Shown here: one piece after another, positions 17,991 to 37,259 of the stretch
Layout of the letters: every line of letters starts with the position of its first letter
Numbering within the stretch: the first letter of the stretch is position 1
Assembly (NCBI GenBank): GCA_027484685.1
Contig: JAIXSO010000052.1
Location: 62,001-126,000 of the forward strand
Length of the DNA stretch: 64,000 nucleotides
Source: Bacteroidota bacterium
GTDB taxonomy: Bacteria > Bacteroidota > Bacteroidia > UKL13-3
Direction: 5' to 3'
The notes under the pieces: generated by a model
What the model saw: only the letters and a program-made list of their open reading frames with translations
Told to the model about the DNA's origin: nothing
The model's database searches: none
Translations under genes and position numbers: made by a program

Positions 17991-18719
17991 ATGGAATCTC
18001 TAAAAATTTTAATAGTTGAAGATGAGTTTATTATTGCTAGTAATTTAAAGCTAATGCTGGAAGATTTGGGTTATGCACCCTACACTCCTGCTGGTAGTAA
18101 AAAAGAAGCAATGGAAGCCTTGAGAAAATGGGAAATTGACTTGGCTATTTTAGATATTAACTTAAGTGGAAAGCACGAAGGCATTGAAATTGCCAATTAT
18201 ATTAAAGACAATGTGCATATTCCATTTATATTTTTAACTAGTAATGCTGATAAGGAAACCATTAATGAAGCTAAACATACTTTGCCAAAAGCCTATTTAA
18301 TAAAGCCTTTTACCGAAGAAGATATTTATTCGGCTATTGAAATGGCAATGGCTTCATTATTACATGAGCGTGAAAGTGAAGTTGGAAAATTGGCTATATT
18401 AAAAGATAGTATTTTTATCAAATTAGGGTCTAAATATTTTAAAGTAGATATTCCTGATATTTTATATTTTGAAGCTGATGGAAAAATGATGAATGTATAC
18501 ACGGCTCAAAATCAAAAATTTAGTATCAGAACTAGCCTAGAAGCTTTATTAGATAGGCTAAAAGCATATAATTTTATTAGAATCCACAGAAGTTATTGTA
18601 TAAATGCAAAATATTTGGAAATAATTAATGGCGAGTTTGTTACGGTAAAAGATCAACAGATTCCAATTGGTAGGAATTATAGAGATGATTTATTAGCTAA
18701 TATTAAAACCATGAACTAA
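17991..18719 (+). CDS. LytTR-family response regulator (REC-LytTR)
   Basis: This is a 242-residue protein. The receiver domain (about 1-122) has acidic residues in IVEDEF, the phosphoacceptor Asp in LAILDINLSG, Thr in FLTSNADK and Lys in LIKPFTEED. The C-terminal LytTR DNA-binding domain (about 140-240) shows DILYFEADGKMMNVYT and FIRIHRSYCIN. It lies 33 bp before the sensor kinase at 18753 and upstream of the giant T9SS protein operon. Inference: it may control that operon, but no binding site is demonstrable here. Confidence 0.93.
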   Translation: MESLKILIVEDEFIIASNLKLMLEDLGYAPYTPAGSKKEAMEALRKWEIDLAILDINLSGKHEGIEIANYIKDNVHIPFIFLTSNADKETINEAKHTLPKAYLIKPFTEEDIYSAIEMAMASLLHERESEVGKLAILKDSIFIKLGSKYFKVDIPDILYFEADGKMMNVYTAQNQKFSIRTSLEALLDRLKAYNFIRIHRSYCINAKYLEIINGEFVTVKDQQIPIGRNYRDDLLANIKTMN

Positions 18720-18752
18720 ACGAAATTAGATTTCGTATCTTATAAAAAAGTA

Positions 18753-20615
18753 ATGAAAAAAACACTATTGATTGGCTTTTTATTAAGCTTAACATGTTTG
18801 CTAAAAGCCAATGAAATACAGTTTTCAGTAGTGCTAAATAGAGCTAATAAGCTTTCCGCTGTAAGTAAGTCCAACGAGGCTTTGAAATTACTGTGGGATG
18901 GGTTGCAACAATCCGAAAATCAGAAAAATGTTAAGTATGTAGGTTTATTTAGTTTGGCCTTGGCCGATGAGTATTTATACATAAACCAAATAGATTCCAT
19001 AGATTTTTATTATGGGGAGGCGCTTAAAATTTTTGAATCACTTGAGCTAGAAAGTGAACTAATAAGAGCTAAATTAGGTTTGCTTGAATTACCAAGAAGA
19101 ACTAATCCATCAAGTACCATGGATAAGTATTTGGAATTACTAAAAAGAGCAAGGGCCATTAACGATAATGCAACTTATTATTTAATTCTTGAAAAAATAA
19201 TAATGGTAAATAACGGTATGGAGAACTATACCGAAGCATTTGCCCAAACACATGAATGTATAAATTATTATTTAGCTGTTAAAGATACTTTGCGATTAGC
19301 CATTAAATACAGAGAGTTAGGAGCACTTTTTTTTACACATTTTGGAAGCCGGAATGGACTTCCATATGATAAGGATTCTTGTTTTTATTATCATGATAAA
19401 GCAATCAAATTATCGTATAAAATTGGCGCTTATAGGAATTTAGTTTTTGCATACCAACGTTTGAGTTGGATGCTTTATAAAACAGATTTGAGTTTGGCTT
19501 GGAAGTATATAAAAACTGCCGATAGTATTGATAAGTTATATGATATTAAATCTCCTCAATTACCTAATATTATGTCGTTTTCTCTTTTTAAAATGGGTAA
19601 AGTAAAAGAGGCCATTCAAAAATCGAAGGAAGCACTTGACTTAGGGCTGAAGGCAAAGCAACTTTTTATTGGAATTCAAGCTACAGACCAACTGTGTATT
19701 TATTATAAAGCCATAAAAAGATATGATTCTGCTTTGTATTATAATGAAATGTCTCATTTGTTTAACGATAGTATAAGAAGCCAAAGAAATTATAAAGATG
19801 CCGCTAAAATGCAAGCAAAACTTGAGTTTGATAAAGCTAGTTATGAAAAGGAACTAATACAAAAAGAAGAAATTAAGCGCCAAAGTGTTATTCAAAAGTT
19901 TACACTGGCCACCATCATTTTATTACTTATTATTATTATTGTGGTTTATAGGGCTTATTTACATTACAAGAAATCAACAGCAATTATCAAAGCTCAAAAC
20001 GATGAAAAAACAATACTCATAAAAGAAATCCATCATAGGGTGAAAAATAACCTATCTGTTATTTCAGGTATATTAGATTTACAAAAACGTAATATTAAAG
20101 ATGAACAAATGTTGGAAGTTTTTAAGGATGCAAAATCGCGTATTAATAGCATGGCATTGGTTCATAAAAACCTTTACGAGCAAGACGATTTTTCAACCAT
20201 TGATGCCCAAAGTTATTTCGAGAATTTATATATAACTGTAAGTAGTGCTTATAAATTACAAGGTAAAAACATTGTTTATAATATACAATGTAAAAATGTA
20301 AATATTAATTTAGATACGTTAATACCGCTTGCTTTGATTACTAATGAATTGCTTACCAATTCGTTTAAATATGCATTTAACGAAAGAGGTAAAGGCAGGA
20401 TAGAGTTATTACTTAAAAATACAGATACTGGCTTTGAAATGCAATATAGCGATGACGGTATTGGTTATAACTTTGAGGAATTAAAGCCTGAAAATGAAGG
20501 TTTAGGTACACTTTTAATTAACGGACTGATAAAGCAATTAGATGGAAACTTGAAAAAAGAAAATACATCTAATGGATTGGCTTATTTTTTTATGTTTAAA
20601 GGTATTCATTTGTAA
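18753..20615 (+). CDS. Sensor histidine kinase, TPR sensor plus HisKA_2 kinase
   Basis: The protein has 620 residues. A signal peptide (LIGFLLSLTCLLKA) is followed by a periplasmic helical region (about 25-375) with tetratricopeptide-like repeats (for example GKVKEAIQKSKEALDLGLKA). A transmembrane helix lies near 385-405 (TLATIILLLIIIIVVYRAYL). The HisKA_2 phosphoacceptor helix is KEIHHRVKNNLSVISGI (about 420-435), and the ATPase domain has LITNELLTNSFKYAF and YSDDGIGYN. TPR-linked HisKA_2 kinases paired with LytTR regulators are common in Bacteroidota. It lies 135 bp before the giant adhesin gene. Confidence 0.93.
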   Translation: MKKTLLIGFLLSLTCLLKANEIQFSVVLNRANKLSAVSKSNEALKLLWDGLQQSENQKNVKYVGLFSLALADEYLYINQIDSIDFYYGEALKIFESLELESELIRAKLGLLELPRRTNPSSTMDKYLELLKRARAINDNATYYLILEKIIMVNNGMENYTEAFAQTHECINYYLAVKDTLRLAIKYRELGALFFTHFGSRNGLPYDKDSCFYYHDKAIKLSYKIGAYRNLVFAYQRLSWMLYKTDLSLAWKYIKTADSIDKLYDIKSPQLPNIMSFSLFKMGKVKEAIQKSKEALDLGLKAKQLFIGIQATDQLCIYYKAIKRYDSALYYNEMSHLFNDSIRSQRNYKDAAKMQAKLEFDKASYEKELIQKEEIKRQSVIQKFTLATIILLLIIIIVVYRAYLHYKKSTAIIKAQNDEKTILIKEIHHRVKNNLSVISGILDLQKRNIKDEQMLEVFKDAKSRINSMALVHKNLYEQDDFSTIDAQSYFENLYITVSSAYKLQGKNIVYNIQCKNVNINLDTLIPLALITNELLTNSFKYAFNERGKGRIELLLKNTDTGFEMQYSDDGIGYNFEELKPENEGLGTLLINGLIKQLDGNLKKENTSNGLAYFFMFKGIHL

Positions 20616-20750: not shown

Positions 20751-23700
20751 ATGAAACGTTCTAATAGTTTTTTTAAAACAAGTTTTTTTTGTTTTATTTT
20801 CTTTTTCTCAATTAGCAAATGCAGTTTTGCTTATTACCCTATACCTACTTCTGATGTTACATTTAATCTCAATGTATGCGAGGGTTATGTTGATGTAAGA
20901 GCCATTATGAGAGCAGAAGAAACCTGCGATGATGACATTGATTGGGGAAGGCTTTTATATTGGAATGGAACTAGCTATGTTCAAATTGTTCAGTATGGTA
21001 CGGGTTCAATTAATGGAATTAATGGAGCAATTATTTTAGATTTAGGAAATACTACTGAAGGTAACTTAATTTATAGAAATTTTAGATGGTATAATATACC
21101 TCAAAGTGTTATTAATCAAGGACTGGTTCAATTAAAAGTAGATTTTTATTGGGACGGTTGTGGTATCGGTGATCCAGAACAACAATTTTCAAATACCGCT
21201 GTAATTCCTTTAACTAATATTTTGTCTCCAAATTCAGTTTTTGCCACGCAAAATTTATGCAATAAAATAACAATTTCTTGGCAAAATCCTACTGTTCCTT
21301 GTGGCAATGATGCGTTGTTTGAAACACAAATTTATAGAGGTGATTCAATGATAGGAACAGTTTTAGGAACAAGCACTTCCTCCTTTGATGATAACTCTGC
21401 AAGATTAAGCCGTGGGCAAGATTATAATTATAGATTAAGAATAAGGAAGTGGCCAACAAATAATAGTTTTTCATTGTTTAGTCAATATACTTTTGTAACA
21501 GTTGGTAGCTTAAAAGATGCACCAAGTTCACCAACCAATGTCTCCGCATCTACCGATAGATGTGATGGGAAAATAAGAATTACTTGGTCATTTACTGAGG
21601 CTACTCCTACTAATTTTATTATCAATAGGTCTACAAATTCTAATATGACAAATGTTACTGTCTATACGTTAGGAGGCACTAGAAGAGAATTTATTGATAC
21701 AAATAATATTATAAGAGGCAACACCTATTATTATCAAATAAAGGCAATAGATAATTGCAACTCGCACTCTACTTTGTCGGATATAGTGGAGGGAAGTTCT
21801 CCTGGCATTCCATCATCACCATTATTAACCACAATATTAACAGATTCAATAAATAACATAATAACTATTAACTGGAATAGTACCAATTATGAAACTGGTT
21901 ATGAGGTTCAACGATTGCTTAGTTCTGGAGGTGTATCTACTATATTTAATGTTGATCAAGATATAACAACATTTGTTGACAATACTGTTGCATCATGTAA
22001 CTTATATAATTATAGAGTTAAAGCATTAAATGCCTGTTTGAGCAATGGAGGAATTGTTTCAAGTAATAGCAGAAATGCTATTTTAAATCCAAATTTATCA
22101 AATATTTTTAATAGTACAAATTACAAACTAACATGTACCAAAGGATACTTTCCAAACTTTACACAACTAGAATGGAATGTTTCGAACGAGAATTTATTAA
22201 GCAGATATAGAATATTTAGGAAACAACTTGGAAGCAGTTCTGACTCAACCTTAATAGCTGATTTGCCAGCAGGCTCCAACCAATATACTGATGCAACAAG
22301 TGTGGCAGGTGTTCTTTATAAATATACCATTATTGGCTCAACAGTTTGTTCTGGTCAAACACGTTTTTCTAATTTTTCTGAAGATGTTGGATTCAGAAGT
22401 CCAACTGGAGTAATAAATGGAAAAATTACTTATAACGGTGGTTTTGCTGTAGGGGATGCCAGAGTTGTAGCTGCTACAACAGGAACTTTAGCAGGCTCTT
22501 CACTATTGCTAAATGGTACTAATGGGTATTTGCAAATACCACATGCCACCAATATAATGCCAACCAATGAATTTACAATTGAAACTTGGGTTAGGCCCAC
22601 TAACTTAAATAATTCGTTTAGCATTATTGATAAATATAATTCATCGGGGGTGGCAAGTGGTTATAGGTTAATTTATGATGTAAATACTTCTTCATTAATA
22701 TTTTCGGTAATTAATAGTAATGGAATACAACAAGTTTCGGTCAATAATCCTTTTACGGTTGGTAGTTATAAACAAGTTACAGCAGTTTATAAATCAGATA
22801 GTTTATTTTTATATTTAAACGGAGTTTTAGGTGCTACCGCTAAAAATCAAGGAACAAGTGCTAGCATGATTTCAAATTCTCTACCAATTAAAATTGGAAG
22901 TTCTCAACTTGCAGGTAATTGGTTTACTGGAAATATTGATGAACTCAGGGTTTGGAATTATGCCAAAAATAAGACTCAAATTTCTAAAGATTTTAGTAGA
23001 TATGTAAATCCAAACGAAATTGGTTTACAAGCCTATTATACTTTTGATGAAAATGTACCAAGTTTAACAAGTTTTTTTGATGCATCAAATCAAAATAATA
23101 TTTACAACAAAAATGATGGACAAATAATCGGTGGAGTAACCTGGAGTAATAATATTCCTAATACTTCACAATTAGGTTTGGCAGCCTATACTGATTCAAA
23201 TGGGAACTATTCTATCTCCAATATCAGGTATTCATCAAGTGGTCAAAATTTTACTGTTGTACCCTCATTTATATCTAGTGGAGTGGCTCACGCATTTTCA
23301 CCTTCCAATAAAGTTTTGTTTATTGGCGATGGTGCTAATATTCAAAATAATGTCGATTTTACTGACATCAGCTCATTTACAGTTACTGGCAATGTAAGAT
23401 ATTTAAATACTAATTGTCCAGTGAAAGAGGTAAGTATAAAAATTGATGGAAATATTGTTATATCAGGAGGAACTCCTGTAAATACTGATAATAACGGACA
23501 ATTTTCTGTTCAAGTTCCAATTGGGTTTCATGTGATAACTGTAGAAAAGGATGGTCATATTTTTAGTGAAGGTAGATTTCCTGATGTTGGATTATATGAG
23601 TTTCTATCCCCGGTTAACAATATTCAATTTGTTGATAGCACTTTTATTAAGGTTGTTGGAAGAGCTGTTGGTGGATTGACAGAAGGCAATAAAATTGCTG

Positions 23701-26700
23701 GTTTAGGCCGTTCAAAAAACAATATTGGTATTAGTAGAATTATTTTTAGGTCGCAATTATTGAATGGCTGTCGCACAGATACTGTTTATACAAATAAAAA
23801 CACGGGAGAATATACTGCTTATTTGCCTCCTTTAGTTTATACTGTTGAGCCAAAGGTATTAAGTAACTTGGCTCTTAATTTTGGCGTTCAGCCATTGCTT
23901 GATTTAACAAATAGCTTCAATCAAGTGAAAGTAAAAGATTCACTGTTTCAAAATAACGTTTTTAAGCAAATTGACTCTAATTTTTATAATGTGAGAAGGG
24001 ATTTTATTTATAGAACTCCAGCTCAAATACAAGCTTTTCAAATTAAATTGGATAATGATACAACTAGTTTTTTAGGCGATAATGAATATAAGTTTAGTAG
24101 AAACGATAAGGTTATATTTACTGGTAATCCGTTTGGTTATCCAATTTTTTCTGAGTCGAAACAGTATGGCATTCGCTTTATTATTACCGAACCGTACGAA
24201 AATAATGATAGCATAATTCCAGGGTTAGGTGTTTATAAAACTTATTATAAGGACTATGTAAATGGAGCCATGCAAATTGACAATAATTTTGTGTTAGGCG
24301 TTGACACAAATTCAAGCATTAACGTATTGCAGGGTATAGGAGATTATTATTTTGTGGCTGGAGGCCCAAATATTTCTGCTGATCCAATAAATCCTAATTA
24401 TAGTTTTACAAAAACAATTGATGCATTGTTCATTCCACAAGGCAATGTGGCAAGTGTGCCTTGGTTGCCTAATAGCAGTGACCCAATTAGTAAATCATTT
24501 AGATTTATAACTTTTGGAAACAGAGGGCGTGGCAATAATTTTGTTACCAAAGGCCCATCAATGGTTGATTTTATTTTAAGAGATCCTCCTGGTTCACTTA
24601 GTTTTTCAACTTTAGCAAAAGGTCAATCATTTAGTAAGGTTGAGGATATACAATCAGTTTATCAGGGATCACAATCATTGGGGGTGTCAATTTTTAATGG
24701 TGTTCAAGTTAGTACTCCTGGTGGAGATGTTGATGCCGCGAATACAGCAACGGTTACAGCAAATTTTACCCAAACTGCTACTAAAGAAGGAAATAGAGTT
24801 ACCACTACTACATTTAACACTACTGTAACAACTAGTGCCGATCCAGGTTCTGTAGGCTCTCAAGCTGATATTTTTATTGGAAAATCAACCAATATGGTAT
24901 TTGGTTTAACCGATAATATTAGGCTAATTGATACAGCTACTTGTAATTTAGCTGATGTAATTTGTATTGGAAATGATTTTAATGGATATAAAATAGGTAA
25001 AACTACAGGAATGTTCTTAGTGCCTCAAGGAGTAGCCACAACATTTTATTATACAACTGATGAAATTGAAAATATTCAAATTCCTAATTTAATTACTTTA
25101 AGAAATTCAATTTTAGCTAATTCAAAATATAGTAACGGTACTAAAAAATATACCATAGTATTTAATGATGCAAATGATCCAGATTACGATAAAAAATATG
25201 GCAGTAATAATGACGATGCTATTTGGGGTAATGCTGCTTCAACTTTAACACCATCTGTAAGAGATTCTCAAGATAATTTTGGCCAAAGTTACGTGTTTAA
25301 TTTCGATCAATCTCTTGACCCAAAGTATAGAATGTTTCAAACCGATTCTGTAAGAATGCTTAACCAACAAATTGCATTATGGAAACAAGCACTAGCAAGA
25401 AATGAACGTGAAAAATATGGCGTTTTTAGTAATTTATTCCCACCTGACCCCAATGGAACTAATATTAGTTTTGGAAAAGCAACAGTAGCAAAAGATTTTT
25501 CAACCGAGGTTGATTCTACGGAAACTGTGATAGCTGAATTTGATTTTGGTGTGGAGGCTAATTTAGAAATTTATGGTAAATTTGGTGGCAAAGGTGCAGG
25601 CTTACAGTTAAGTGCTGCATATAATTATAGTTCAATAAATTCACAAAGTTTTACGGGTGTTACAAGTACCACTATTTCATATTCGTTAAATGATGGAGAT
25701 GATGATAATTTGCTATCGGTTGATGCAGTTAAATCGCCTCTAGGTAATGGCCATTTATTTAAGTTAAGAGCAGGACAAACTTCTTGCCCGTATGAAGGTG
25801 AAACCTATGCGCATTACTTTAATCCAAGTTTGCCCGATTCTCAAATAAATGCTAGTACTTATTTTGAGGATGGTGAATCAGTTAAACTAGCCGAAGGTAC
25901 AGCACAAATTGATGTTCCTAAAATTGCAATTAGTCCGGCTCGAAAGGTAAATGTGCCTGCCGAAAATGAAGCTACTTTTATTTTAACTTTAAAAAATGAA
26001 AGTGAGGCTAATGTAGATAATACTTATGATTTAAGATTGGTGGAAGCTTCAAATCCGTATGGGGCAATTGTTTCAATTGATGGACAAAGTCCTAATAGAA
26101 GTTTTGATGTACCTGGAGCACCCGGTGGTTCAAGCATTACCAAAACGGTTTCTATAAAAAGAGGGCCTATTTATTATAAATACGATAGCTTATTGTTTAT
26201 TTTTAAATCGCAATGCGATGATAATATTATGGACTCTGCCTATGTTAGTGTAGCATTTTTACCCACTTGTACCAAAGCTAACATTACCAATATTGACGAT
26301 AAATGGGTACTTAATTCTTCATTCAAAGACTCTTTACCTGTAGTTATAAGTAATTATGATTACAATTTTGGTGGTTTTAGTAATATTGAATTACAATACA
26401 AACAAGCTTCAAAAAGTGTTTGGAATGCAGTAAAAACCTTTTATAAGGATACAAGCGATATTACTTTAGCTATTCCAACCGATAAAGCTTATACCTCTTT
26501 TATTTGGAATGTAGCAGAAGTAGCTGATGGTCCATACGACTTAAGAGTAGCAAGTACATGCAGTGCACCTGGTTACGATGATGTGAAACTATATTCTACT
26601 CCTATTACTGGAATTATTGATAGGGTAAATCCTCATCCTTTTGGAACACCTTCGCCTGCTGATGGTATTTTATCGCCTAACGATGATATTAGTATTCAAT

Positions 26701-29700
26701 TCAATGAATCAATAGACCCTAGCACTATTACATTTAATAACTTTGATTTAAGAGGTGTTTTAAATGGTAGTCCAGTTAGGAATAGTACTAGTTTGTATTT
26801 TGATGGTAACAGCGATAATGTAGAAATTGAAAGTGGACTTTCATTACAAAAACGTTCGTTTACTGTGGAGTTTTGGGCTAAACGCAAACAATTAAATAGT
26901 AGGACAATTTTATTTTCTCAAGGAAATCAAGCTGAACAAAGTATTTCAATTGGCTTTGATGAAAATAATAGAATGATGTTCAATATGAACGCATCTACTA
27001 TTTTATCTAATACTTCATATACCGATACTGTTAATTTTGTTCATTACGCAGTTTCATATAATTACGAAAATCAAACTGTAGTATTGTATGTAAATGGTGT
27101 AGTTGCCAATTCTTCCTCACCAAATTTATATGAAGTGTATGAAGGTTCTGGTAAAGTATTTTTTGGTAAATTGAGTTATAGTTCTGGATTTGACTTTAAA
27201 GGTAATTTAGCTGAAATTAGGTTATGGAATACAGCTAGGAGTTTAACGCAAGTATTATCAAATATGAACAAGCAGCTTACAGGAACAGAAGCTGGAATTG
27301 TAAGCAATTGGCGATTAGATGAAGCCAATGGTGCTATAGCTAAAGATATAGTTAGAAGTAGAAATGGTTTTATTAATAATGCTACTTGGAGTTTAACACC
27401 AAGCGGTAAATCATTGGCATTTAATGGAGTAAACGGCTATTTAAATTATCCTGCCTCTACAGCGGTTATTTCAAAAGAAATGGACTTTACCATTGAATTT
27501 TGGTTTAAGTCAAATAACAATAATGGTATTCAAACTTTACTTTCAAATGGACGAGGTGATAATAATGAACCAAGTGCTGAATATAAATGGTGGATTGGTT
27601 CTAATACTTCTGGAAATATATTGGTAAAGCATAATGGCAATCAATTTTTAGCTACCAATAGTAATTATTTTGATGGCAATTGGCATCATTTTGCATTGGT
27701 TTTAAAACGTAGTTCTAGCTTAACTGCATTCATTGATGGCAATCAACAAAATAGCATTCCTGCAAGTAGTTTTGGTCAGTTTGGTGGTTCAAAATTATGG
27801 TTAGGAGCACGTAATTTAAATCCAATTCAAACCACAGATTCAACCGATTTATATTTTAATGGTTTGATTGATGAGTTTAGATTTTGGAATGTATCGCGAT
27901 TACAAGAGCAAATAAAAAATGGCTATCAATACAGAATTTTGGGTAATGAAAGTGGTTTGATTGCCTATATTCCTTTTGAAGACTATACAACTGTATTGGG
28001 CGTTCCCATTTTATCTCAAAGCAATAAAGAATTTATAAGTAATAATAATTTTGTTTTAGTGAATGGAGCTGGTTTTTCAAACGAAACACCTTTAATTAAA
28101 TTGCCATTACCAAATCAAAGTATAGCATTTACTTATTCAATTAATAATGATAAAATAGTACTAACACCTACTACCTCGCAAGAGTTAATTGAAAATGTTA
28201 CTTTAGATATTACCGTAAAAAATATTTTAGATAAGAATGGTAATATCATGCAATCACCAAAAACATGGATTGCCTATATCAATAAAAATCAAGTAAAATG
28301 GCAACAACAAGAATTTACCTTTACTAAAAAAGCAGGTGCTAGCTTAACCTTTAATGCTAATATAGTTAATTTAGGAGGAGCGCTTAAGCAATGGAATATT
28401 TCAAACCTGCCTTCATGGTTAACGGTTAGCAACTCATCAGGCACAGTAAGTCCTAATAGTTCAATTCAAGTTCAATTTACGGTTGATCCTAATGTGAATA
28501 TTGGTAATTATGAACAAGCTTTACAACTAACAACGGATTTTGGTTTTGCCGAACTATTGTACATAAAATTAAAAGTTAGTGCCGATGCACCAGCAAGTTG
28601 GAGTTTAAATCCATCAGGTTTTAATTATTCAATGAATATTGTTGCACAACTAAAAGTAAATAACATAAGTTTAACAAATACTGAGTCGAAATTAGCTGCC
28701 TTTGTTGGTAACCAATGCAGAGGTGTTGCTAATTTGCAATATTTGCCACAGTACGATAAATATTTAGCATTTATAACCATATACAGCAATAGTAATAATA
28801 CCATTGAAAAGTTAGACTTTAAAATATGGAATGCCGATGCTGGTAAAATTCATACCGATATTGATACTAGCTTATATTTTACTCCTGATGCTTTGATTGG
28901 AAACTTTGCCACTCCTCAAGTATTTAATGCTTCTGATAAATTAACACGTTATGTACCATTAAATGCAGGTTGGAACTGGATTTCTTTTAATTTATTAAAT
29001 AGTGATTCTACCAAATTAAATCAACTATTAGGAAACCTAACTTTAAACAATGGTTCTCAATTAAAAAACAATATGGAGTTCGCATCTTTTGATGTTCAAA
29101 ATGGATGGTCGGGTAACTTAGTTGGTATCAATGCAGGTATTAAACCAGAAAAATCGTACTTATTAAATATTGGTAATGTAGATACACTTGTGTTAAAAGG
29201 TATTGAGGTTAATCCTAGTTTACGTCCTATAAATTTAGTTCCTGGTTGGAATTGGATTGGTTTTCCATCGCAACGAAACTTAACTGTTAACGAAGCTTTT
29301 GGAAATTATTCAGCTACACATGGCGATGTTATCAAAAACCAAACACAATTTGCCATTTACGATAGTATAATGGGCTGGGTTGGTAGTTTAATTACCATGA
29401 AACCTAATGTGGGTTTTTTATATAATACCACAGTTAATGGAAACTTCACTTATCCAAGAACTGCTATTTTTGGAAAAAAAGGAATTGATGCAGAAAATAT
29501 CACTTCAAAATATTGGCAAGCTAATGCATATGCTTACGCTGAAAATACCAATATTATTAGTACTGTAAACATTTGTAATAAATTACTTGAAAATGGAAAT
29601 TGGTTATTAGGTGGTTTTGTAAATAATGAGTTAAGAGGTTTTGCAAAAGCTCAGTTTATTAATAATCAATATGCTTATTTCTTAACCATTGCTGGCAATA

Positions 29701-30122
29701 ATAATGAGCCTATTACATTTAAATTATTAGATGAAACTTCTGGAAAAGTTTATGACTTAAACGAAAATTTAGCATACAAGCCAAATGCTTTATTAGGAAG
29801 TATTAGCAGTCCATTTAACTTAACTGCTACCAGCTTAATTCCTTGTAACGATAACAATACTTTTGATAATGATTATTATAAATTTTATCCTATTCCAGCA
29901 TCAAATAAATTAAATGTTGAGTTAAATTTAAATGATGTTCAATCGGTGCAAATACATATTTATGATATAGCAGGAAAGTCGGTGTATAGCACAGAAGAGA
30001 AGCAACTTAATAAAGGTATTCAAGTGATAGGCTGCGATATTACAAATATTCAAAACGGTATCTACATAGCTGAAGTTATGGCCAATAACAATGTTTACAG
30101 ACATAAAATAATTAAAAACTAA
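20751..30122 (+). CDS. Giant multidomain T9SS surface protein (FN3, LamG, BACON-like, type A sorting domain)
   Basis: The protein has 3123 residues with a signal peptide. Domains by eye are: several fibronectin III-like domains (about 165-560); a LamG/concanavalin-like domain (about 585-740, FTIETWVRP); a carboxypeptidase-regulatory-like fold (about 870-945); a long middle region I cannot assign (about 950-1950); and an SbsA/Big_5-like Ig half (1957-2010). Next come two LamG domains (2010-2165, 2217-2385; FTVEFWAKR, FTIEFWFKS) and the other half of the Ig fold (about 2455-2510). A BACON-like domain (2513-2613) follows. The repeat module described in the findings occurs at 2615-2730 and 2920-3027, separated by a region with two GWNWI(S/G)F motifs. 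The last 80 residues (KFYPIPASNKLNVEL ... HKIIKN) are a type A T9SS sorting domain. Inference: cell-surface adhesin or matrix protein. The next gene is 39 bp downstream. Confidence 0.93.
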   Translation: MKRSNSFFKTSFFCFIFFFSISKCSFAYYPIPTSDVTFNLNVCEGYVDVRAIMRAEETCDDDIDWGRLLYWNGTSYVQIVQYGTGSINGINGAIILDLGNTTEGNLIYRNFRWYNIPQSVINQGLVQLKVDFYWDGCGIGDPEQQFSNTAVIPLTNILSPNSVFATQNLCNKITISWQNPTVPCGNDALFETQIYRGDSMIGTVLGTSTSSFDDNSARLSRGQDYNYRLRIRKWPTNNSFSLFSQYTFVTVGSLKDAPSSPTNVSASTDRCDGKIRITWSFTEATPTNFIINRSTNSNMTNVTVYTLGGTRREFIDTNNIIRGNTYYYQIKAIDNCNSHSTLSDIVEGSSPGIPSSPLLTTILTDSINNIITINWNSTNYETGYEVQRLLSSGGVSTIFNVDQDITTFVDNTVASCNLYNYRVKALNACLSNGGIVSSNSRNAILNPNLSNIFNSTNYKLTCTKGYFPNFTQLEWNVSNENLLSRYRIFRKQLGSSSDSTLIADLPAGSNQYTDATSVAGVLYKYTIIGSTVCSGQTRFSNFSEDVGFRSPTGVINGKITYNGGFAVGDARVVAATTGTLAGSSLLLNGTNGYLQIPHATNIMPTNEFTIETWVRPTNLNNSFSIIDKYNSSGVASGYRLIYDVNTSSLIFSVINSNGIQQVSVNNPFTVGSYKQVTAVYKSDSLFLYLNGVLGATAKNQGTSASMISNSLPIKIGSSQLAGNWFTGNIDELRVWNYAKNKTQISKDFSRYVNPNEIGLQAYYTFDENVPSLTSFFDASNQNNIYNKNDGQIIGGVTWSNNIPNTSQLGLAAYTDSNGNYSISNIRYSSSGQNFTVVPSFISSGVAHAFSPSNKVLFIGDGANIQNNVDFTDISSFTVTGNVRYLNTNCPVKEVSIKIDGNIVISGGTPVNTDNNGQFSVQVPIGFHVITVEKDGHIFSEGRFPDVGLYEFLSPVNNIQFVDSTFIKVVGRAVGGLTEGNKIAGLGRSKNNIGISRIIFRSQLLNGCRTDTVYTNKNTGEYTAYLPPLVYTVEPKVLSNLALNFGVQPLLDLTNSFNQVKVKDSLFQNNVFKQIDSNFYNVRRDFIYRTPAQIQAFQIKLDNDTTSFLGDNEYKFSRNDKVIFTGNPFGYPIFSESKQYGIRFIITEPYENNDSIIPGLGVYKTYYKDYVNGAMQIDNNFVLGVDTNSSINVLQGIGDYYFVAGGPNISADPINPNYSFTKTIDALFIPQGNVASVPWLPNSSDPISKSFRFITFGNRGRGNNFVTKGPSMVDFILRDPPGSLSFSTLAKGQSFSKVEDIQSVYQGSQSLGVSIFNGVQVSTPGGDVDAANTATVTANFTQTATKEGNRVTTTTFNTTVTTSADPGSVGSQADIFIGKSTNMVFGLTDNIRLIDTATCNLADVICIGNDFNGYKIGKTTGMFLVPQGVATTFYYTTDEIENIQIPNLITLRNSILANSKYSNGTKKYTIVFNDANDPDYDKKYGSNNDDAIWGNAASTLTPSVRDSQDNFGQSYVFNFDQSLDPKYRMFQTDSVRMLNQQIALWKQALARNEREKYGVFSNLFPPDPNGTNISFGKATVAKDFSTEVDSTETVIAEFDFGVEANLEIYGKFGGKGAGLQLSAAYNYSSINSQSFTGVTSTTISYSLNDGDDDNLLSVDAVKSPLGNGHLFKLRAGQTSCPYEGETYAHYFNPSLPDSQINASTYFEDGESVKLAEGTAQIDVPKIAISPARKVNVPAENEATFILTLKNESEANVDNTYDLRLVEASNPYGAIVSIDGQSPNRSFDVPGAPGGSSITKTVSIKRGPIYYKYDSLLFIFKSQCDDNIMDSAYVSVAFLPTCTKANITNIDDKWVLNSSFKDSLPVVISNYDYNFGGFSNIELQYKQASKSVWNAVKTFYKDTSDITLAIPTDKAYTSFIWNVAEVADGPYDLRVASTCSAPGYDDVKLYSTPITGIIDRVNPHPFGTPSPADGILSPNDDISIQFNESIDPSTITFNNFDLRGVLNGSPVRNSTSLYFDGNSDNVEIESGLSLQKRSFTVEFWAKRKQLNSRTILFSQGNQAEQSISIGFDENNRMMFNMNASTILSNTSYTDTVNFVHYAVSYNYENQTVVLYVNGVVANSSSPNLYEVYEGSGKVFFGKLSYSSGFDFKGNLAEIRLWNTARSLTQVLSNMNKQLTGTEAGIVSNWRLDEANGAIAKDIVRSRNGFINNATWSLTPSGKSLAFNGVNGYLNYPASTAVISKEMDFTIEFWFKSNNNNGIQTLLSNGRGDNNEPSAEYKWWIGSNTSGNILVKHNGNQFLATNSNYFDGNWHHFALVLKRSSSLTAFIDGNQQNSIPASSFGQFGGSKLWLGARNLNPIQTTDSTDLYFNGLIDEFRFWNVSRLQEQIKNGYQYRILGNESGLIAYIPFEDYTTVLGVPILSQSNKEFISNNNFVLVNGAGFSNETPLIKLPLPNQSIAFTYSINNDKIVLTPTTSQELIENVTLDITVKNILDKNGNIMQSPKTWIAYINKNQVKWQQQEFTFTKKAGASLTFNANIVNLGGALKQWNISNLPSWLTVSNSSGTVSPNSSIQVQFTVDPNVNIGNYEQALQLTTDFGFAELLYIKLKVSADAPASWSLNPSGFNYSMNIVAQLKVNNISLTNTESKLAAFVGNQCRGVANLQYLPQYDKYLAFITIYSNSNNTIEKLDFKIWNADAGKIHTDIDTSLYFTPDALIGNFATPQVFNASDKLTRYVPLNAGWNWISFNLLNSDSTKLNQLLGNLTLNNGSQLKNNMEFASFDVQNGWSGNLVGINAGIKPEKSYLLNIGNVDTLVLKGIEVNPSLRPINLVPGWNWIGFPSQRNLTVNEAFGNYSATHGDVIKNQTQFAIYDSIMGWVGSLITMKPNVGFLYNTTVNGNFTYPRTAIFGKKGIDAENITSKYWQANAYAYAENTNIISTVNICNKLLENGNWLLGGFVNNELRGFAKAQFINNQYAYFLTIAGNNNEPITFKLLDETSGKVYDLNENLAYKPNALLGSISSPFNLTATSLIPCNDNNTFDNDYYKFYPIPASNKLNVELNLNDVQSVQIHIYDIAGKSVYSTEEKQLNKGIQVIGCDITNIQNGIYIAEVMANNNVYRHKIIKN

Positions 30123-30161: not shown

Positions 30162-33100
30162 ATGAAGCAAAAAATATTTATAATATCCTTTTTATTACTA
30201 GGATTTATTAAAACAAAAGCTGCTGCGCCAAGTTGGTCGGTTAACCCAGCAAGCTTTCAGTTTAACATGACATTGGTAGCTGTAGCCAATATTAATTGTG
30301 TGGAATTAGCAAATCCAAGTAATAGAATTGGCGTATTTGTTGGCACTCAATGCAGAGGAACAGCCTTAACAAGTCAAGTGGTTAATGGCAGGTATACTGC
30401 TTCATTGTTTGTTTATAGCAATAATGTTTCTGGTGATTCCGTTTCCTTTCAGGTTTATAATGCTGCTTTAGATTCAGTATTTAATATACCTATTAAAATT
30501 GTATTTCAACAAAATGCAAATTATGGAACTGCCACTGCACCTTTTGTAATTTACAATAACCAATCGCCAACTGATATTTCAACTTCGGTAAATTCGTTTA
30601 GTGAAAACACTTCAATTGGAGCTACCATTGCTACTTTAAGTGCTCAAGATCCTGATGGTGCAGAAAACTTTAGTTATTCATTAGTTTCAGGGAGTGGAAG
30701 CACCGATAATTCAAAATTTTCTATACTGGGTAATACTTTAAGATTAGCTTCAACTGTTAATTTTGAAATTCAAAAAACTTGTGCTATTAGGTTAAGAGTT
30801 TTGGATGGAAGAGGGTGTTCGTTTGAAAAAGTAATTTCATTAAATGTGATTAACTTTAATGAGCCTCCAACAGCTATCTTAATTTCAGATTCAACCATAT
30901 TTGAGAATGCTGCGGCTTTAACCATTATTGGAACTTTATCGGCTGTTGATGCTGATTCTGCCGATATGGCCACGTTTAGTTTAGTTGGTGGAGTTGGTTC
31001 AACCGATAATGCAAGTTTTACTATTTCTGGAAATATACTTCGCGCCACTCAATCATTTAATTTTGAAATCAAAGCAAGTTATTCAATAAGAGTAGGGGTG
31101 AGGGATGCAGCCAACAATAGCTTTGAGCGCATTATAAATATCGTTGTAAAAGATGCAAACGATTTTCCAACAAATATTTTATTAAATGGTTCTACAATTG
31201 GAGCTTCATTTGCAGAAAATAGAACAATAGGATCTTTATTAGCAACGTTTACCACAACTGATGAAGATGTTGCAAATCAATTTACTTACACTTTTGTAAA
31301 TGCAGTAGGTAATGATAATAGTAATTTTCAAATAGTAGGAAATCAATTAAGAAGCAATGCAAATTTTGACTTTGAAACCAGGCAAATTTATGCCATTGCT
31401 GTTCAAACAAACGATGGTAATGGTGGTATTTTTTCAAAACAATTTTTATTAACAGTTACCGATAGCAACGATGCTCCAATAGCTGTTAATATTAGTAATA
31501 ATACTATCTTAGAAAATCAACCATTACAAACATTTATTGCTAAATTAAGCACTTCCGACCCTGATGTTACTCAAACAAATTTTACTTACAATCTTGTTTC
31601 AGGTAGTGGTAGTTCGGGAAACTCAAATTTTACCATAAGTAACGATACTTTGTACAGCAATAATACTTTTAATTTTGAAGGTGTTAATTCATACAGTATT
31701 AGGTTAAGAACAACCGATGCATTTGGTGCTTCATTTACTCAAGTATTTATTATTTCAGTTTTAGATGCCAACGATAATCCTTCTGATGTCAGCTTGTCAA
31801 ATAACTCCATCAATGAAAATCAAAGTATAAATACTGTTATTGGCACATTAACTTCAACTGATCAAGATATAATTAGCACTTTTAGTTACTCATTGGTAAG
31901 TGGCTTAGGTGCTACCGATAATTCATTCTTCAATATAAGTGGAAATACACTTCGTACATCAAGTGTTTTTAATTTTGAAAATAAAAGTACCTATTCAATT
32001 AGAGTAAGAACTACTGATGGCAATGGAGGATTTTTTGAAAAAATATTTGCTATTAATATCAATAATATAAATGATGCCCCATCTGATATTAATTTGTCGA
32101 ATAATTCTATTGCAGAGAACAGAAGTATTAACTCAGTGATAGGTTCTTTTACAAGTATTGATCAAGATGTAACCGATAATTTTACTTACAGTTTTGCCAA
32201 TATTGCAGGAAACGATAACAATAGTTTTATTATTTTAGGTAATACACTTAGAGTTGCGCAACAATTAAATTTTGAGCAAAAGAATACCTATTTTATTTAC
32301 GTTACTACCACAGATGCTAGTAGTGCAAGTTTTACCAAACAATTTCAGATTAATATTTTAGATAGTAACGATGCCCCAATAGACATTTCTATTAGCAGTC
32401 CAAGTATTTCTGAAAATCTTTCTGTTAACTCTTTTATTGGTAAATTTAGTACAACCGACCAAGATGCAAATAACTCATTTATTTATAGTTTAGTTTCAGG
32501 AACTGGCTCAGCAGATAATCCTAATTTTATCATCAGTAACGATTCTCTTTACTGCGCTACTGTATTAAACTTTGAAACTAAGAATACCTTTTCTATAAGA
32601 GTTCGCTCTACTGATAATGGAAACTTATTTACCGAAAAAGTTTTTACTATAACCGTTATTAATGGCAATGACGCACCAACAGATATTTCATTAAGTAATA
32701 ATCTTGTTAACGAAAACATGCCTTTTAATACTTTAATAGGTAATTTAAATTCTACCGACCCAGATACCGGAAATGTTTTTACTTATGCTTTAGTGCCTGG
32801 CGTTGGTGCTGCTAATAATGCGCTTTTTACCATAGTAGGTAACCAATTACGCACTTTTGGAATTTTTAATTTCGAAAACCAAAAGAACTATTCTATTAGA
32901 ATACAAACCAACGATGGTAATGGTGGTACATTTTCAAAAGTTTTTACCATTAATGTGGTTGATATAAATGATAGACCTACTAATATACTTTTAAGCAATA
33001 ACTCCATTACTGAAAGTAAACCTTTAAACAGCTTAGTTGGCAATTTAACTTCGGCCGATGAAGATACTTTAAGTAGTTTTGTTTATAGTTTTTCAAATTC

Positions 33101-35342
33101 TCAAACCAACGATAATAATAAGTTTATTTTATCAGGTAATCAATTACGAACCAATGCTAGTTTTGATTTTGAAACCAAAAGTATTTATGTTGTCAATATT
33201 CAAACAGATGATGGAAATGGTGGTGTGTTTGAAAAACAATTTATAATTAATGTATTAGATAGTAATGATGCTCCTTTTAATATTTCTATTTCTAATAATT
33301 CAATCAATGAAAATGAAGCAACCAATACCTTTATTGGTTTATTGAGCGCAGAAGACCCCGATGCACTTAAAAGTTTTACTTATAGTTTAGTTAATGGCAT
33401 TGGTGCTTCCAATAATCAATCATTTATTATAAGAAATGATTCATTGTTTAGTAATGAGATATTTAATTATGAAGCAAAAACTAAGTATTCAATTAGGGTT
33501 CAAGTAACTGATAACGGTGGTTTAAGTTTTGCTAAAAGTTTTGAAGTAATAATCAATAATCAAAATGATGCTCCAACTGCCATTGTGTTAAGCAATAGCC
33601 AAATTACTGAAAATAGTGCCTCAAGAACATTTATTGGTTCTTTTTCGGCCAATGATGAAGATTCATTGAATTTTTTTAGTTACTCATTAGTTGCAGGTGT
33701 TGGTGCTGCCGATAATGCTAATTTTAGCATCAGTGGAGTTAATTTATTTTCTAATAGTTCTTTTAATTACGAAGTTAAAAACAACTATTCAATTAGGGTA
33801 AAAGTAATTGATGGTAGAGGAAAAGATTTTGAAACCAATTTTATAATTGCAGTTATTGATAGTAACGATGCTCCAAGCAATATTTTATTAAGTGCTAATA
33901 ACGTTTCCGAAAATAAAAATATTGGAACTTTGGTAGCAACTATTTCAACTATTGACCAAGATACTAACAATACTTATAACTACAGCTTTTTTAATGGAAG
34001 TAATAACGATAATGCTCAATTCTTAATTATCAATAATCAGTTGAGAACAAACGCTGTTTTTAATTATGAGAAAAAGGATTTTTATGTAATTCAAATTGTT
34101 GCAACCGACAATTTTGGTGTTTCAATTTCAAAACAATTTATCATAAATGTTATAGATTCTGTTGATGCTCCACAAAACGTAGAATTAAGTAACAATATTG
34201 TTTCTGAAAATCAACCAATCAATTCATTTGTTGGTTTCTTAACCTCGATTGATGAAGACCAATTTAGCGGATTTAACTATGTTTTAGTAGGTGGCGTTGG
34301 TGCTACTAATAATGGTTTGTTTAAAATTAGCAACGATTCATTATTTACCAATCAAGTATTTAATTTTGAAGCTAAAAATAGTTATTCAATAAGAATAAGA
34401 AGTACCGATATATCGGGAGCATTTGTAGAAAAAGTTTTTACTGTTGATGTGAAAGATGAGAACGATGCTCCAAGTAATGTGTCTTTATCTAATTTATTGT
34501 TAAACGAAAATAATACTAATGGAATATTGGTTGGTAGTTTTACCACTACCGATGCCGATTTGAATGATAATTTTGAATATGCCCTAGTAGCAGGTGTTGG
34601 CAGTAGCGATAATAATTTGTTTAGTATAGTCAACAATAATTTGTTTGCCAATTTTGTTGCTAATTTTGAACTAAAATCAAGCTACTTAATTCGTGTTCAA
34701 ACCAAAGATTTAAATAAAGATAGTTTTGAAAAATCATTTACCATTAGTATAGTTGATGTAAATGAAAAACCTCAGCTAAAATTAGACACTTTTACTGTAA
34801 GCGAAAATGCTCCAATTGGAACTATGTTAGGAACCTGCTCGGCTAATGATGTTGATGTATCATCAACATTTACTTATACTTTAATAAACACTAATACCTC
34901 GTTACCTTTTGATGTAGATAATAATGGGGCTATTGTTTTAAAATCTTCGTTAGATTATGAAGCCAATAAACAATACACTTTAAAAATAGTGGTGAATGAT
35001 GGTGGCGCTAATTCATTAAACGATACTGGCAATATTGTAATAATAGTAAATGACGAAATTGAAGTCAAACAAGCCTTACCGGTTTCCAATTACATGTCGC
35101 CAAATGGTGATGGTGATAACGATTATTTTACCATTGCCAATGTAGAATTATATGCCGATTATGAATTAACTATTTTAAACGAAAATGGGTTAGAAGTTTA
35201 TAAAGTTTTACGAGATTATAATAACGATTGGAATGGTACTTATAACAATAAGCAATTACCTTCTGGAACTTATTTTTATGTATTTAAAAATAAGGCTTCA
35301 GGTGCTGAATTTAAAGGAGTTTTCAATATAGTAAATAAATAA
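30162..35342 (+). CDS. Cadherin-repeat protein with type B T9SS (CHU_C / gliding motility-associated) C-terminus
   Basis: The protein has 1726 residues. A signal peptide (ends KTKAA) is followed by a module shared with the upstream giant (about 22-134). Fifteen cadherin-like domains of about 100 residues then run from 135 to about 1635. They show calcium-site residues such as E-N, D-x-D and D-x-N-D-A-P at linkers. The C-terminus (about 1640-1726; SNYMSPNGDGDNDYFTIANV, GTYFYVFKN) is the gliding motility-associated domain used by SprB-like type B T9SS cargo. PorP/SprF proteins are known to be needed for such cargo, and one follows 21 bp downstream. Inference: a long calcium-stiffened surface filament for adhesion or movement. 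Confidence 0.95.
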   Translation: MKQKIFIISFLLLGFIKTKAAAPSWSVNPASFQFNMTLVAVANINCVELANPSNRIGVFVGTQCRGTALTSQVVNGRYTASLFVYSNNVSGDSVSFQVYNAALDSVFNIPIKIVFQQNANYGTATAPFVIYNNQSPTDISTSVNSFSENTSIGATIATLSAQDPDGAENFSYSLVSGSGSTDNSKFSILGNTLRLASTVNFEIQKTCAIRLRVLDGRGCSFEKVISLNVINFNEPPTAILISDSTIFENAAALTIIGTLSAVDADSADMATFSLVGGVGSTDNASFTISGNILRATQSFNFEIKASYSIRVGVRDAANNSFERIINIVVKDANDFPTNILLNGSTIGASFAENRTIGSLLATFTTTDEDVANQFTYTFVNAVGNDNSNFQIVGNQLRSNANFDFETRQIYAIAVQTNDGNGGIFSKQFLLTVTDSNDAPIAVNISNNTILENQPLQTFIAKLSTSDPDVTQTNFTYNLVSGSGSSGNSNFTISNDTLYSNNTFNFEGVNSYSIRLRTTDAFGASFTQVFIISVLDANDNPSDVSLSNNSINENQSINTVIGTLTSTDQDIISTFSYSLVSGLGATDNSFFNISGNTLRTSSVFNFENKSTYSIRVRTTDGNGGFFEKIFAININNINDAPSDINLSNNSIAENRSINSVIGSFTSIDQDVTDNFTYSFANIAGNDNNSFIILGNTLRVAQQLNFEQKNTYFIYVTTTDASSASFTKQFQINILDSNDAPIDISISSPSISENLSVNSFIGKFSTTDQDANNSFIYSLVSGTGSADNPNFIISNDSLYCATVLNFETKNTFSIRVRSTDNGNLFTEKVFTITVINGNDAPTDISLSNNLVNENMPFNTLIGNLNSTDPDTGNVFTYALVPGVGAANNALFTIVGNQLRTFGIFNFENQKNYSIRIQTNDGNGGTFSKVFTINVVDINDRPTNILLSNNSITESKPLNSLVGNLTSADEDTLSSFVYSFSNSQTNDNNKFILSGNQLRTNASFDFETKSIYVVNIQTDDGNGGVFEKQFIINVLDSNDAPFNISISNNSINENEATNTFIGLLSAEDPDALKSFTYSLVNGIGASNNQSFIIRNDSLFSNEIFNYEAKTKYSIRVQVTDNGGLSFAKSFEVIINNQNDAPTAIVLSNSQITENSASRTFIGSFSANDEDSLNFFSYSLVAGVGAADNANFSISGVNLFSNSSFNYEVKNNYSIRVKVIDGRGKDFETNFIIAVIDSNDAPSNILLSANNVSENKNIGTLVATISTIDQDTNNTYNYSFFNGSNNDNAQFLIINNQLRTNAVFNYEKKDFYVIQIVATDNFGVSISKQFIINVIDSVDAPQNVELSNNIVSENQPINSFVGFLTSIDEDQFSGFNYVLVGGVGATNNGLFKISNDSLFTNQVFNFEAKNSYSIRIRSTDISGAFVEKVFTVDVKDENDAPSNVSLSNLLLNENNTNGILVGSFTTTDADLNDNFEYALVAGVGSSDNNLFSIVNNNLFANFVANFELKSSYLIRVQTKDLNKDSFEKSFTISIVDVNEKPQLKLDTFTVSENAPIGTMLGTCSANDVDVSSTFTYTLINTNTSLPFDVDNNGAIVLKSSLDYEANKQYTLKIVVNDGGANSLNDTGNIVIIVNDEIEVKQALPVSNYMSPNGDGDNDYFTIANVELYADYELTILNENGLEVYKVLRDYNNDWNGTYNNKQLPSGTYFYVFKNKASGAEFKGVFNIVNK
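31164..34766 (+). repeat. Four tandem copies of a three-cadherin super-repeat (897 bp period)
   Basis: Cadherin repeats 3-14 fall into three subtypes that recur in order ABCABC. Type B markers (codons for S/R-N-D-S/T-L) start at 31638, 32535, 33432 and 34329, exactly 897 bp apart. Type A markers (NDN) start at 31311, 32211, 33108 and 34005 (900, 897, 897). The array therefore grew by duplication of a 299-residue block rather than of single domains. Confidence 0.85.
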
Positions 35343-35363: not shown

Positions 35364-36488
35364 ATGAAAAAATATATTTTAATAATCAAATTATACTTTT
35401 TAGTTGGAGTATTATTTGCACAAAATAGGAGTTATACTTATACCAATTTGTTAAATCCATTTGTTTACAATCCGGCTTTAGCGGGCGAATATGAAAATAT
35501 TTATACCGTGTTTAATGCACGTACCATGGTAAATGGGGTAGAAGGTATGCCCCAATCTTATAATTTTGGAATACACAGCCCTTTAAAAAATGCGGGCATT
35601 GGTGCAAAAGTTTTAAGTGTTTCAAGTGGTGTATTTCAAACCATAAATGCCGAAGCTGTTTATAGCAAAATGGTTAAATTAAATAGTGAAAATTTAATTT
35701 CGTTCGGTTTATCATTAGGGTTTGTTCAAACCAATATTCAAACCAATTTATTAAATGGACAAGTAAGTTTAAAAGACGAAACTTTAGTTTCAAACGATTT
35801 AAATAAGCTTTTTCTTTCTTCGGGTGCAGGTGTAAATTATAGGTTTAGGAAAAGTATTGAATTAGGTGTATCATTCCCTATGTTAGTTACCGGAATTAAA
35901 CCACTTAATCCAGCTTTTATTTCAAATTTTAATTGGAATATAGGCCTTGATAGCGAAAAAAGATGGAAGCTAAAACCTAACATAAACTACTATTACTTTG
36001 AAAATTCACCTGAACTTGCCGACTTGTTATTGGGTTTTTCGTGGAATGATGCAATGATGCTTCAAGGTGGTTATAGAACAAATGGAACTACCATTGCTTC
36101 CGTTGGATTTAACTTCAAATCGTTTGAAGTTAAATATGCATATTACCACCACACCAATGGCTTAATGAGCCTTGCTCCCGCTCAAAACGAATTGGCCGTT
36201 GCTTTTCAAATAAATAAGCCTAAGCCTGCTAATAAATATAGGAAAGAAGTAACTTCCGATAAAATAATTCAAGATGAAATTGATAAAATAAATGAAAGAT
36301 TGAATGGAATTATTAATATTGAAAAAACAAATCCTGGTATGGTAAATGTAAAAAAAGAAATTGGTAAGTTGAGTAATGACTTGGATAAAATTTTAAAAAA
36401 ATACGATATTAATAATGCTGAGCAGTTGAATAAAATCAAAAGCCTTCAAAACTCCATTGATTTATTAATTGCAAAATACAGTAACTAA
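35364..36488 (+). CDS. PorP/SprF family T9SS outer-membrane protein with helical C-terminal tail
   Basis: The protein has 374 residues. After a signal peptide (LFAQ) it shows the family opening TNLLNPFVYNPALAGEYENI and the PQSYNFGIHSPLKNAGIGAKV segment. The barrel strands of PorP/SprF follow, to about residue 285. The last 80 residues (about 295-374) are charged and heptad-like (IIQDEIDKINERLNGI, LSNDLDKILKKYDI), an extension that ordinary PorP/SprF members lack as far as I know. The family assists secretion or surface attachment of type B T9SS cargo, matching the cadherin protein 21 bp upstream. The OmpA-domain gene begins 3 bp downstream. Confidence 0.93.
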   Translation: MKKYILIIKLYFLVGVLFAQNRSYTYTNLLNPFVYNPALAGEYENIYTVFNARTMVNGVEGMPQSYNFGIHSPLKNAGIGAKVLSVSSGVFQTINAEAVYSKMVKLNSENLISFGLSLGFVQTNIQTNLLNGQVSLKDETLVSNDLNKLFLSSGAGVNYRFRKSIELGVSFPMLVTGIKPLNPAFISNFNWNIGLDSEKRWKLKPNINYYYFENSPELADLLLGFSWNDAMMLQGGYRTNGTTIASVGFNFKSFEVKYAYYHHTNGLMSLAPAQNELAVAFQINKPKPANKYRKEVTSDKIIQDEIDKINERLNGIINIEKTNPGMVNVKKEIGKLSNDLDKILKKYDINNAEQLNKIKSLQNSIDLLIAKYSN

Positions 36489-36491
36489 ATA

Positions 36492-37259
36492 ATGAAACAT
36501 TTTAAAAGAATTTACCTACTGGTATTAATGTTTTGGCCTTTATTTGGTTATTGCCAAAAGCAAGATACTGCTATTAATGCCGAAATCAGAAACGAGGCTA
36601 TTGAAATTAGAAATAAACTCAATAAATACATGTCAGAAAAATTGTCAATAGATAATTTAAACGGTAATAATAAGGCGAGCAGTGAATCAATAATTGAACA
36701 AGTGTTTAAAACCAAGTTTTTGTTAGATTCATTAATTAAAGTGATTAGCAACCATGAAACCAGAATTGACTCATTAGAAAATACATTTGTATTAATGAGT
36801 GAATTTGGTGTTTTTAATACCCGTAAGGCAAGAAATTTTTATAAAAAAAATAAACTAGCCAAACAAGGTCTTCCTCCTATTGCCAGCGAACAATTGGAGA
36901 AGGTAGATGAAATAAAAGTTTCAAAACCAACAGAAATAACTTATAATGAAAATGTAACCGAAGCCAATTCCATTTATTTTGATGAAAATGTTTGGAAATT
37001 AAACTTTATGGCTCAAATAAAAACCGATTCTATTATTGCTACACTTAAAGGAAAATATATTTTGTTAGTGGGTTATTACGATAAAAATGGTTCAGAAAAA
37101 AGCAATGGTTATTTAGCAAAACGTAGAGTAAAAGATATAAAAACTTATTTATTGAGTAAAGGAATTAAAGAAGAGCTTATAAAAATTGATTACAAACGTA
37201 GCTGCGGAATAGCATCAAACAAATTTTGTAGAAGGGTTGATTTTATTTTTTCTAACTAA
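36492..37259 (+). CDS. OmpA-family C-terminal domain protein with coiled-coil N-terminal part
   Basis: The protein has 255 residues. A signal peptide (LFGYCQK) precedes a helical, charged region with coiled-coil character (about 28-105; EIRNEAIEIRNKLNKYMSEK). The C-terminal 100 residues read as a divergent OmpA-like peptidoglycan-binding domain: SIYFDENVW, ILLVGYYDKNGSEKSNGYLA and KRRVKDIKTYLLSKGI. The two Cys in KRSCGIASNKFCRRVDF are a Bacteroidota-style variation. It is spaced 3 bp from the PorP/SprF gene, so it is very likely cotranslated. Inference: it anchors the neighbouring export or adhesion machinery to the cell wall. Confidence 0.85.
   Translation: MKHFKRIYLLVLMFWPLFGYCQKQDTAINAEIRNEAIEIRNKLNKYMSEKLSIDNLNGNNKASSESIIEQVFKTKFLLDSLIKVISNHETRIDSLENTFVLMSEFGVFNTRKARNFYKKNKLAKQGLPPIASEQLEKVDEIKVSKPTEITYNENVTEANSIYFDENVWKLNFMAQIKTDSIIATLKGKYILLVGYYDKNGSEKSNGYLAKRRVKDIKTYLLSKGIKEELIKIDYKRSCGIASNKFCRRVDFIFSN

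Follow-up and report, generated by a model that had tools for sequence, protein, structure and literature searches.

Three-domain super-repeats in the cadherin array of a T9SS type B surface protein and in relatives of different length

How a long array of cadherin domains was assembled in a bacterial surface protein, and in which steps its length can change, are the questions raised by a gene in a 64,000-nucleotide stretch of Bacteroidota (UKL13-3) DNA, hereafter the window. A single ORF (30162-35342, plus strand; 1726 aa) carries the whole array, whose 15 cadherin domains span positions 30558-35048 (Table 1). A sequence-only reading had sorted domains 3-14 (31161-34763) into three recurring subtypes and proposed expansion by block duplication, which in its view implied a structural or binding period of three domains and a potential for length variation by recombination.

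The cadherin model PF00028 matched the ORF with an E-value of 1.8e-99, and a profile of domains 3-8 matched cadherin structures (E 5e-51). The structure model of domains 3-8 is a chain of cadherin domains (pLDDT 88.8), with protocadherins as the best PDB matches. Calcium-site residues (the Glu of E[N/S], DxD and the Glu of a DRE-like motif) are present in all 15 domains of the window gene, and the DxND-like linker follows the canonical motif fully or closely in domains 2-13, less so in domains 1 and 14. Given these residues and the predicted cadherin chain, the array most likely forms a rod, stiffened by calcium, with the N-terminal head domain mounted on it. The head, of about 110 residues, is kept in relatives that lack the array; its sequence profile found no relative in the PDB, and a Foldseek search with a model that also contained two cadherin domains was dominated by matches to these. 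Matches to HigB_toxin (PF09907), ChitinaseA_N and fn3 fell inside cadherin domains and were discounted as due to chance or to fold-level similarity. Domain 1 (30558-30860) contains a Cys pair, KTC...GRGC in the window gene and NTC...SKGC in the homologous locus L079; the second Cys is conserved in 19 of 19 aligned homologs and the first is not conserved.

Table 1. Features of the cadherin gene and its neighbours, in window coordinates.
Feature	Coordinates	Strand	Remarks
Upstream partner, 3123 aa, LamG-like domains, T9SS type A signal	20751..30122	+	
Signal peptide (aa 1-22)	30162..30227	+	hydrophobic N-terminus in sequence; helix 2-16 in model
N-terminal head domain (aa 23-132), all-beta	30228..30557	+	without Pfam or PDB match
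Cadherin domain 1, C-like N-cap, two Cys	30558..30860	+	
Cadherin domain 2, C-like N-cap	30861..31160	+	
Cadherin domain 3, type A, conserved 4-residue insert	31161..31469	+	
Cadherin domain 4, type B	31470..31772	+	
Cadherin domain 5, type C	31773..32072	+	
Cadherin domain 6, type A	32073..32369	+	
Cadherin domain 7, type B	32370..32669	+	
Cadherin domain 8, type C	32670..32969	+	
Cadherin domain 9, type A	32970..33266	+	
Cadherin domain 10, type B	33267..33566	+	
Cadherin domain 11, type C	33567..33866	+	
Cadherin domain 12, type A	33867..34163	+	
Cadherin domain 13, type B (C-cap)	34164..34463	+	
Cadherin domain 14, type C (C-cap)	34464..34763	+	
Cadherin domain 15, divergent terminal, type Z	34764..35048	+	
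T9SS type B sorting domain (CHU_C / TIGR04131) and stop	35049..35342	+	
PorP/SprF-family outer-membrane protein, ~95-aa C-terminal extension	35364..36488	+	TIGR03519 127.5 bits (cut-off 90.55)
OmpA-like protein	36492..37259	+	

In an all-against-all matrix of the domains, identity was higher at lags 3, 6 and 9 than elsewhere, as the block hypothesis had predicted. Mean identity among domains 3-14 was.444,.422,.486,.430 and.424 at lags 1-5 and.478,.406,.441 and.471 at lags 6-9, with a range of about.38-.44 over all lags that are not multiples of three; the excess at multiples of three was matched by 4 of 20,000 permutations of domain order for protein and by 5 of 20,000 for DNA. DNA identity reached.585 (lag 3) and.587 (lag 6) versus.54-.555 at lags 1, 2, 4 and 5, and DNA autocorrelation over the whole gene had its maximum at 897 bp and its next highest value at 1794 bp. 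The type B markers (ND[S/T]L[Y/F]) lie exactly 897 bp apart, at 31641, 32538, 33435 and 34332, so that the spacing given previously was correct and only the positions had been set one codon (3 nt) too far upstream, at the preceding residue. The type A markers NDN and KQF recur as had been described, with spacings of 900, 897 and 897 bp. Tandem Repeats Finder reported no array at this gene, because periods were searched only up to 500 bp and the copies have diverged. The repeats of the window gene are old and their synonymous sites are near saturation: amino acid identity is at most 57%, no exact repeat exceeds 19 bp, and lag-3 identity at fourfold sites is.398 versus.361 expected from composition. 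With fourfold sites in this state and exact repeats this short, what persists at lag 3 is mostly an amino acid signature.

The subtypes fared differently in a domain tree of four genes. All 18 type A domains formed one clade (99/95) and all 18 type B domains another (96/85), whereas type C was not monophyletic and is better regarded as a residual type; domains 1 and 2 lie nearest to it. All 36 type B domains have an Asp at one position, and an Arg occupies another in all B and all C domains (36/36 each), with other residues in type A, most domains of which also have a one-residue deletion. The 12 further array-complete homologs of the window gene's family all show the excess at lags that are multiples of three. 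When domains were compared across genes, identity was.46-.97 at the same position,.39-.45 at multiples of three and.36-.39 otherwise. Thus, a match in position beats a match in type, which implies that the blocks were in place before the genera of this family (f1) split. Neighbouring domains (lags 1-2) share.36-.44 identity, below 50% on average.

Relatives in other families were found by a profile of the head domain, and the same operon was recovered. Complete arrays fit a single scheme, 1-2-A followed by k copies of B-C-A and then B-C-Z, with k = 0, 1, 2, 3 or 5 and hence 6, 9, 12, 15 or 21 domains. The window gene has k = 3, and a second copy in the same 4.5-Mb genome, about 41 kb upstream and outside the window, has 21 domains. 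Among the array-complete genes of f1 (three genera, the window gene and its paralog counted), only two numbers were observed, 15 domains (n = 10) and 21 (n = 3), and frequent change was not seen. Complete arrays of family f33 have 9 (n = 5), 12 (n = 2) or 15 (n = 3) domains, and a truncated one has at least 15 and aligns as if it had 18; the first C-cap domain of this family scores as C, not B. One gene of family f20 has 6 domains, typed 1-2-A-B-C-Z.

The 21- and 15-domain arrays were aligned domain by domain, with a nearly linear gap cost and almost no gap-opening cost, and two separate sets of exactly three domains were left unpaired in nearly all 30 comparisons. About four length changes are separable (from 15 to 9 in genus g117, nine domains in genus g89, 12 versus 15 in f33, and 21 versus 15 in f1), and about four independent steps that are each a multiple of three would occur by chance about once in 80. 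A far smaller chance figure obtained from 24 genes was set aside because the genes are related. The genomes are drafts. The 15- versus 21-domain count was also mapped on the gene phylogeny (head plus sorting domain, or PorP/SprF), a mapping that we distrust because of signs of gene conversion in genome G048. There, the last cadherin domains of two paralogs (L055:2660-9634, 21 domains; L055:11081-16273, 15 domains) are identical, as are their PorP/SprF proteins, and a 2.8-kb stretch over the ends and the downstream gene has 85% identity, with central domains that are far less alike. The near-identity of the paralog ends points to terminal gene conversion.

The clearest single change was observed in g117 (f33), where the 15-domain gene L120 and the 9-domain gene L124 have domains 1-5 and 12-15 in common, with 72-88% identity. 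Six domains are absent from L124, and the two ORFs differ in length by exactly 1794 nt, i.e. 2 x 897. The junction in L124 lies in the linker NITNSND, where domain-5-like sequence passes into domain-12-like sequence, and the same junction is present in the other two 9-domain genes of this genus. In a tree from the shared parts, the three 9-domain genes nest inside the 15-domain genes (100/99), which indicates a loss of two blocks. The second 9-domain clade, that of g89, is separate in the tree.

A few relatives depart from this series. Cadherin domains are missing altogether from L066 and L067, which retain the head and sorting domains; L079 keeps a single one, closest to position 1, and L127 carries five. 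These arrays of 0, 1 and 5 domains show that out-of-register length changes are possible too. In L066 (9056-9772), L067 (8904-9635) and L079 (10238-11236), PorP/SprF is still downstream, with a long ORF upstream. Family f37 alternates A and B domains, and identity is.53 at lag 2 but only.27 and.28 at lags 1 and 3; nine domains were counted in one genome and six detected in another, which probably has seven including one undetected terminal domain. The unit size therefore differs by lineage, being two in f37, and a unit of three is not obligatory.

Expansion by block duplication is thus borne out by the typed domains, the A and B clades and the relatives that differ by whole blocks, and array length has changed mostly by whole super-repeats and not by single domains. 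The predicted length variation by recombination holds over evolutionary time (6, 9, 12, 15 and 21 domains, and the 1794-nt difference within one genus). Ongoing or phase-variable change is not supported: in the window gene, synonymous sites have nearly saturated and no exact repeat is longer than 19 bp, and domain orthology is constant from genus to genus. Rapid switching between strains is therefore unlikely. A period of three as a structural or binding period is something that we can only infer.

The surroundings of the gene bear on how the protein may be displayed. Judging from its sorting domain (TIGR04131, 55.5 bits versus a cut-off of 35), its signal peptide and the adjacent PorP/SprF gene, which starts 21 bp downstream, the product of the cadherin ORF is a predicted T9SS type B substrate. 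Type B CTD proteins with cognate PorP/SprF proteins have been shown in F. johnsoniae and P. gingivalis (PMC12618676, PMC9143113), and by analogy the PorP/SprF protein here is likely the cognate shuttle and anchor. PorP/SprF genes recur in 23 homologous loci. An OmpA-like gene is adjacent in 16 of 16 loci where the PorP/SprF protein has the extension of about 95 aa and in 0 of 7 where it lacks it (299-313 aa), as counted over the window (35364-37259) and loci L048-L058, L063, L066, L067, L071-L076 and L079; the extension probably docks the OmpA-like protein, itself a likely peptidoglycan anchor, as a cell-wall anchor. Static, not moving, type B proteins of F. johnsoniae are accompanied by a PorE-like gene in their operon (PMC12618676), and on this precedent the OmpA-like gene suggests static anchoring of the cadherin protein.

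The upstream LamG-like protein adjoins the cadherin gene in nearly all homologous loci and has two head-like domains near its C-terminus. In almost every complete copy it measures about 3100-3290 aa, against 0-21 cadherin domains in the neighbouring product; runs of N occur in parts of this region in L049, L066, L077 and L079. A LytTR response regulator and a HisKA_2 sensor kinase (17991-20615) lie directly upstream of the operon, and this pair may regulate it. Contig C61 of genome G058 (family f2) encodes about eight proteins with head-like domains, of about 2140-2220 aa, within 80 kb, which is a large local gene-family expansion.

The explanation that we consider quite probable is a T9SS type B surface protein whose head sits on a calcium-stiffened cadherin rod, anchored by PorP/SprF and lengthened by in-register three-domain blocks. 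The T9SS would display the protein, PorP/SprF would hold its C-terminus at the outer membrane with the OmpA-like protein as a probable cell-wall tether, and the rod of 15 predicted calcium-binding domains would keep the small N-terminal head away from the cell, at its tip. The array consists of an N-cap (1-2-A), k units of B-C-A and a C-cap (B-C-Z); it would have originated by in-register duplication of a three-domain block, and later changes would be mainly gains or losses of whole blocks between domain linkers. Selection would retain the neighbour pairs A|B, B|C and C|A, giving matched interfaces and dissimilar neighbours, and register-breaking indels would be lost. Low identity between neighbours is thought to limit misfolding (PMC4660218, PMC8201768).

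Mutational bias could in principle account for the period with no selection on it, if unequal recombination is easiest between the most similar DNA, at lag 3. DNA identity is indeed highest at lags 3 and 6 (.585 and.587), the g117 junction sits in a linker common to both parents, and multi-domain duplication is the commoner mode of domain-repeat growth generally (PMC1553488). However, the advantage at lag 3 is small (.585 versus.54-.555), exact repeats do not exceed 19 bp, and type residues are near invariant despite near-saturated synonymous sites, which points to selection on the types; we therefore regard bias alone as rather unlikely. Since the DNA advantage at lag 3 is slight today, selection against register-breaking changes is favoured. 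Alternatively, misfolding avoidance might be all that matters, in which case any order with dissimilar neighbours would work and the unit of three would be a frozen accident, inherited from whichever block was duplicated first and unrelated to any ligand or geometric period. This is tentatively possible: neighbour identity averages below 50% here as in other large multidomain proteins (PMC8201768, PMC4660218), and f37 works with a two-domain unit, but the type-specific residues fixed across genera would be left unexplained, and interface matching could explain them.

The same fixed residues, together with the multiples of three in independent lineages and the fixed caps, are what a true structural or binding period would produce, with one lateral or ligand contact per A-B-C unit, as in titin super-repeats, and length measured in three-domain units. 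There is, however, no known contact partner, the unit differs in f37, and cadherin-free versions share the operon, which makes this reading distinctly unlikely. A quantised molecular ruler, in which the three-domain block (two in f37) is both structural and contact unit and the rod must gain or lose entire units to stay in register with a lateral partner, is likewise unlikely; the partner would possibly be the upstream LamG-like protein of about 3100 aa. That the length classes are artefacts of repeat collapse or expansion in draft assemblies is extremely improbable. Several contigs do end inside the array, but a block that is extra or missing shares only about 40-60% identity with its neighbours, which is too little for short reads to collapse it; moreover, the same junction occurs in three separate genomes, and 21-domain genes of two genera share the six extra domains.

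Several known systems resemble the in-register rod in part. Like the titin A-band super-repeats (PMC10665226), the array has typed beta-sandwich domains in a fixed multi-domain order, whole-unit duplication, and equal unit positions that are more alike than neighbours; titin, however, is eukaryotic, with Ig/FnIII domains in units of 7 and 11 matched to the filament, whereas the unit of this bacterial T9SS cadherin protein is three. Periscope proteins (SasG, Rib and Sgo_0707; PMC8201768) are also bacterial stalks in which a variable domain number sets the reach of the N-terminal domain. Their repeats are highly identical and vary in number between strains, whereas the typed blocks described here differ in number between species, as in g117 (one genome per species); tandem repeats of high DNA identity are not found in the window gene (at most 57% aa identity, 19-bp longest exact repeat). 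With SprB and other type B CTD adhesins of F. johnsoniae (PMC9143113, PMC12618676) the protein shares TIGR04131, a PorP/SprF gene directly downstream and a large surface-exposed size, but not the cadherin super-repeat, the giant type A LamG-like protein upstream or the OmpA-like gene in the operon. BapP, SiiE and LapA-type adhesins (PMC12153261) are likewise extended, with tandem cadherin-like or BIg domains and calcium-site motifs; their secretion and anchoring are different, and BapP has three repeat classes without a regular three-domain period, according to the same source. A survey of domain repeats (PMC1553488) recognised multi-domain block duplication as off-diagonal similarity (a unit of seven in nebulin), with a cadherin unit of five, in contrast to three here and two in f37. 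In the literature searched, we found no typed, quantised series with a family-specific unit in a bacterial T9SS stalk.

Bacterial stalks of variable length are usually described as near-identical repeats that vary fast between strains. Here, the domains are diverged and typed, and length changes mainly by whole super-repeats. The natural length variants have heads and anchors of one kind, and the natural series of 6, 9, 12, 15 and 21 domains, together with a sister lineage that uses another unit, would make the question of neighbour matching directly testable.
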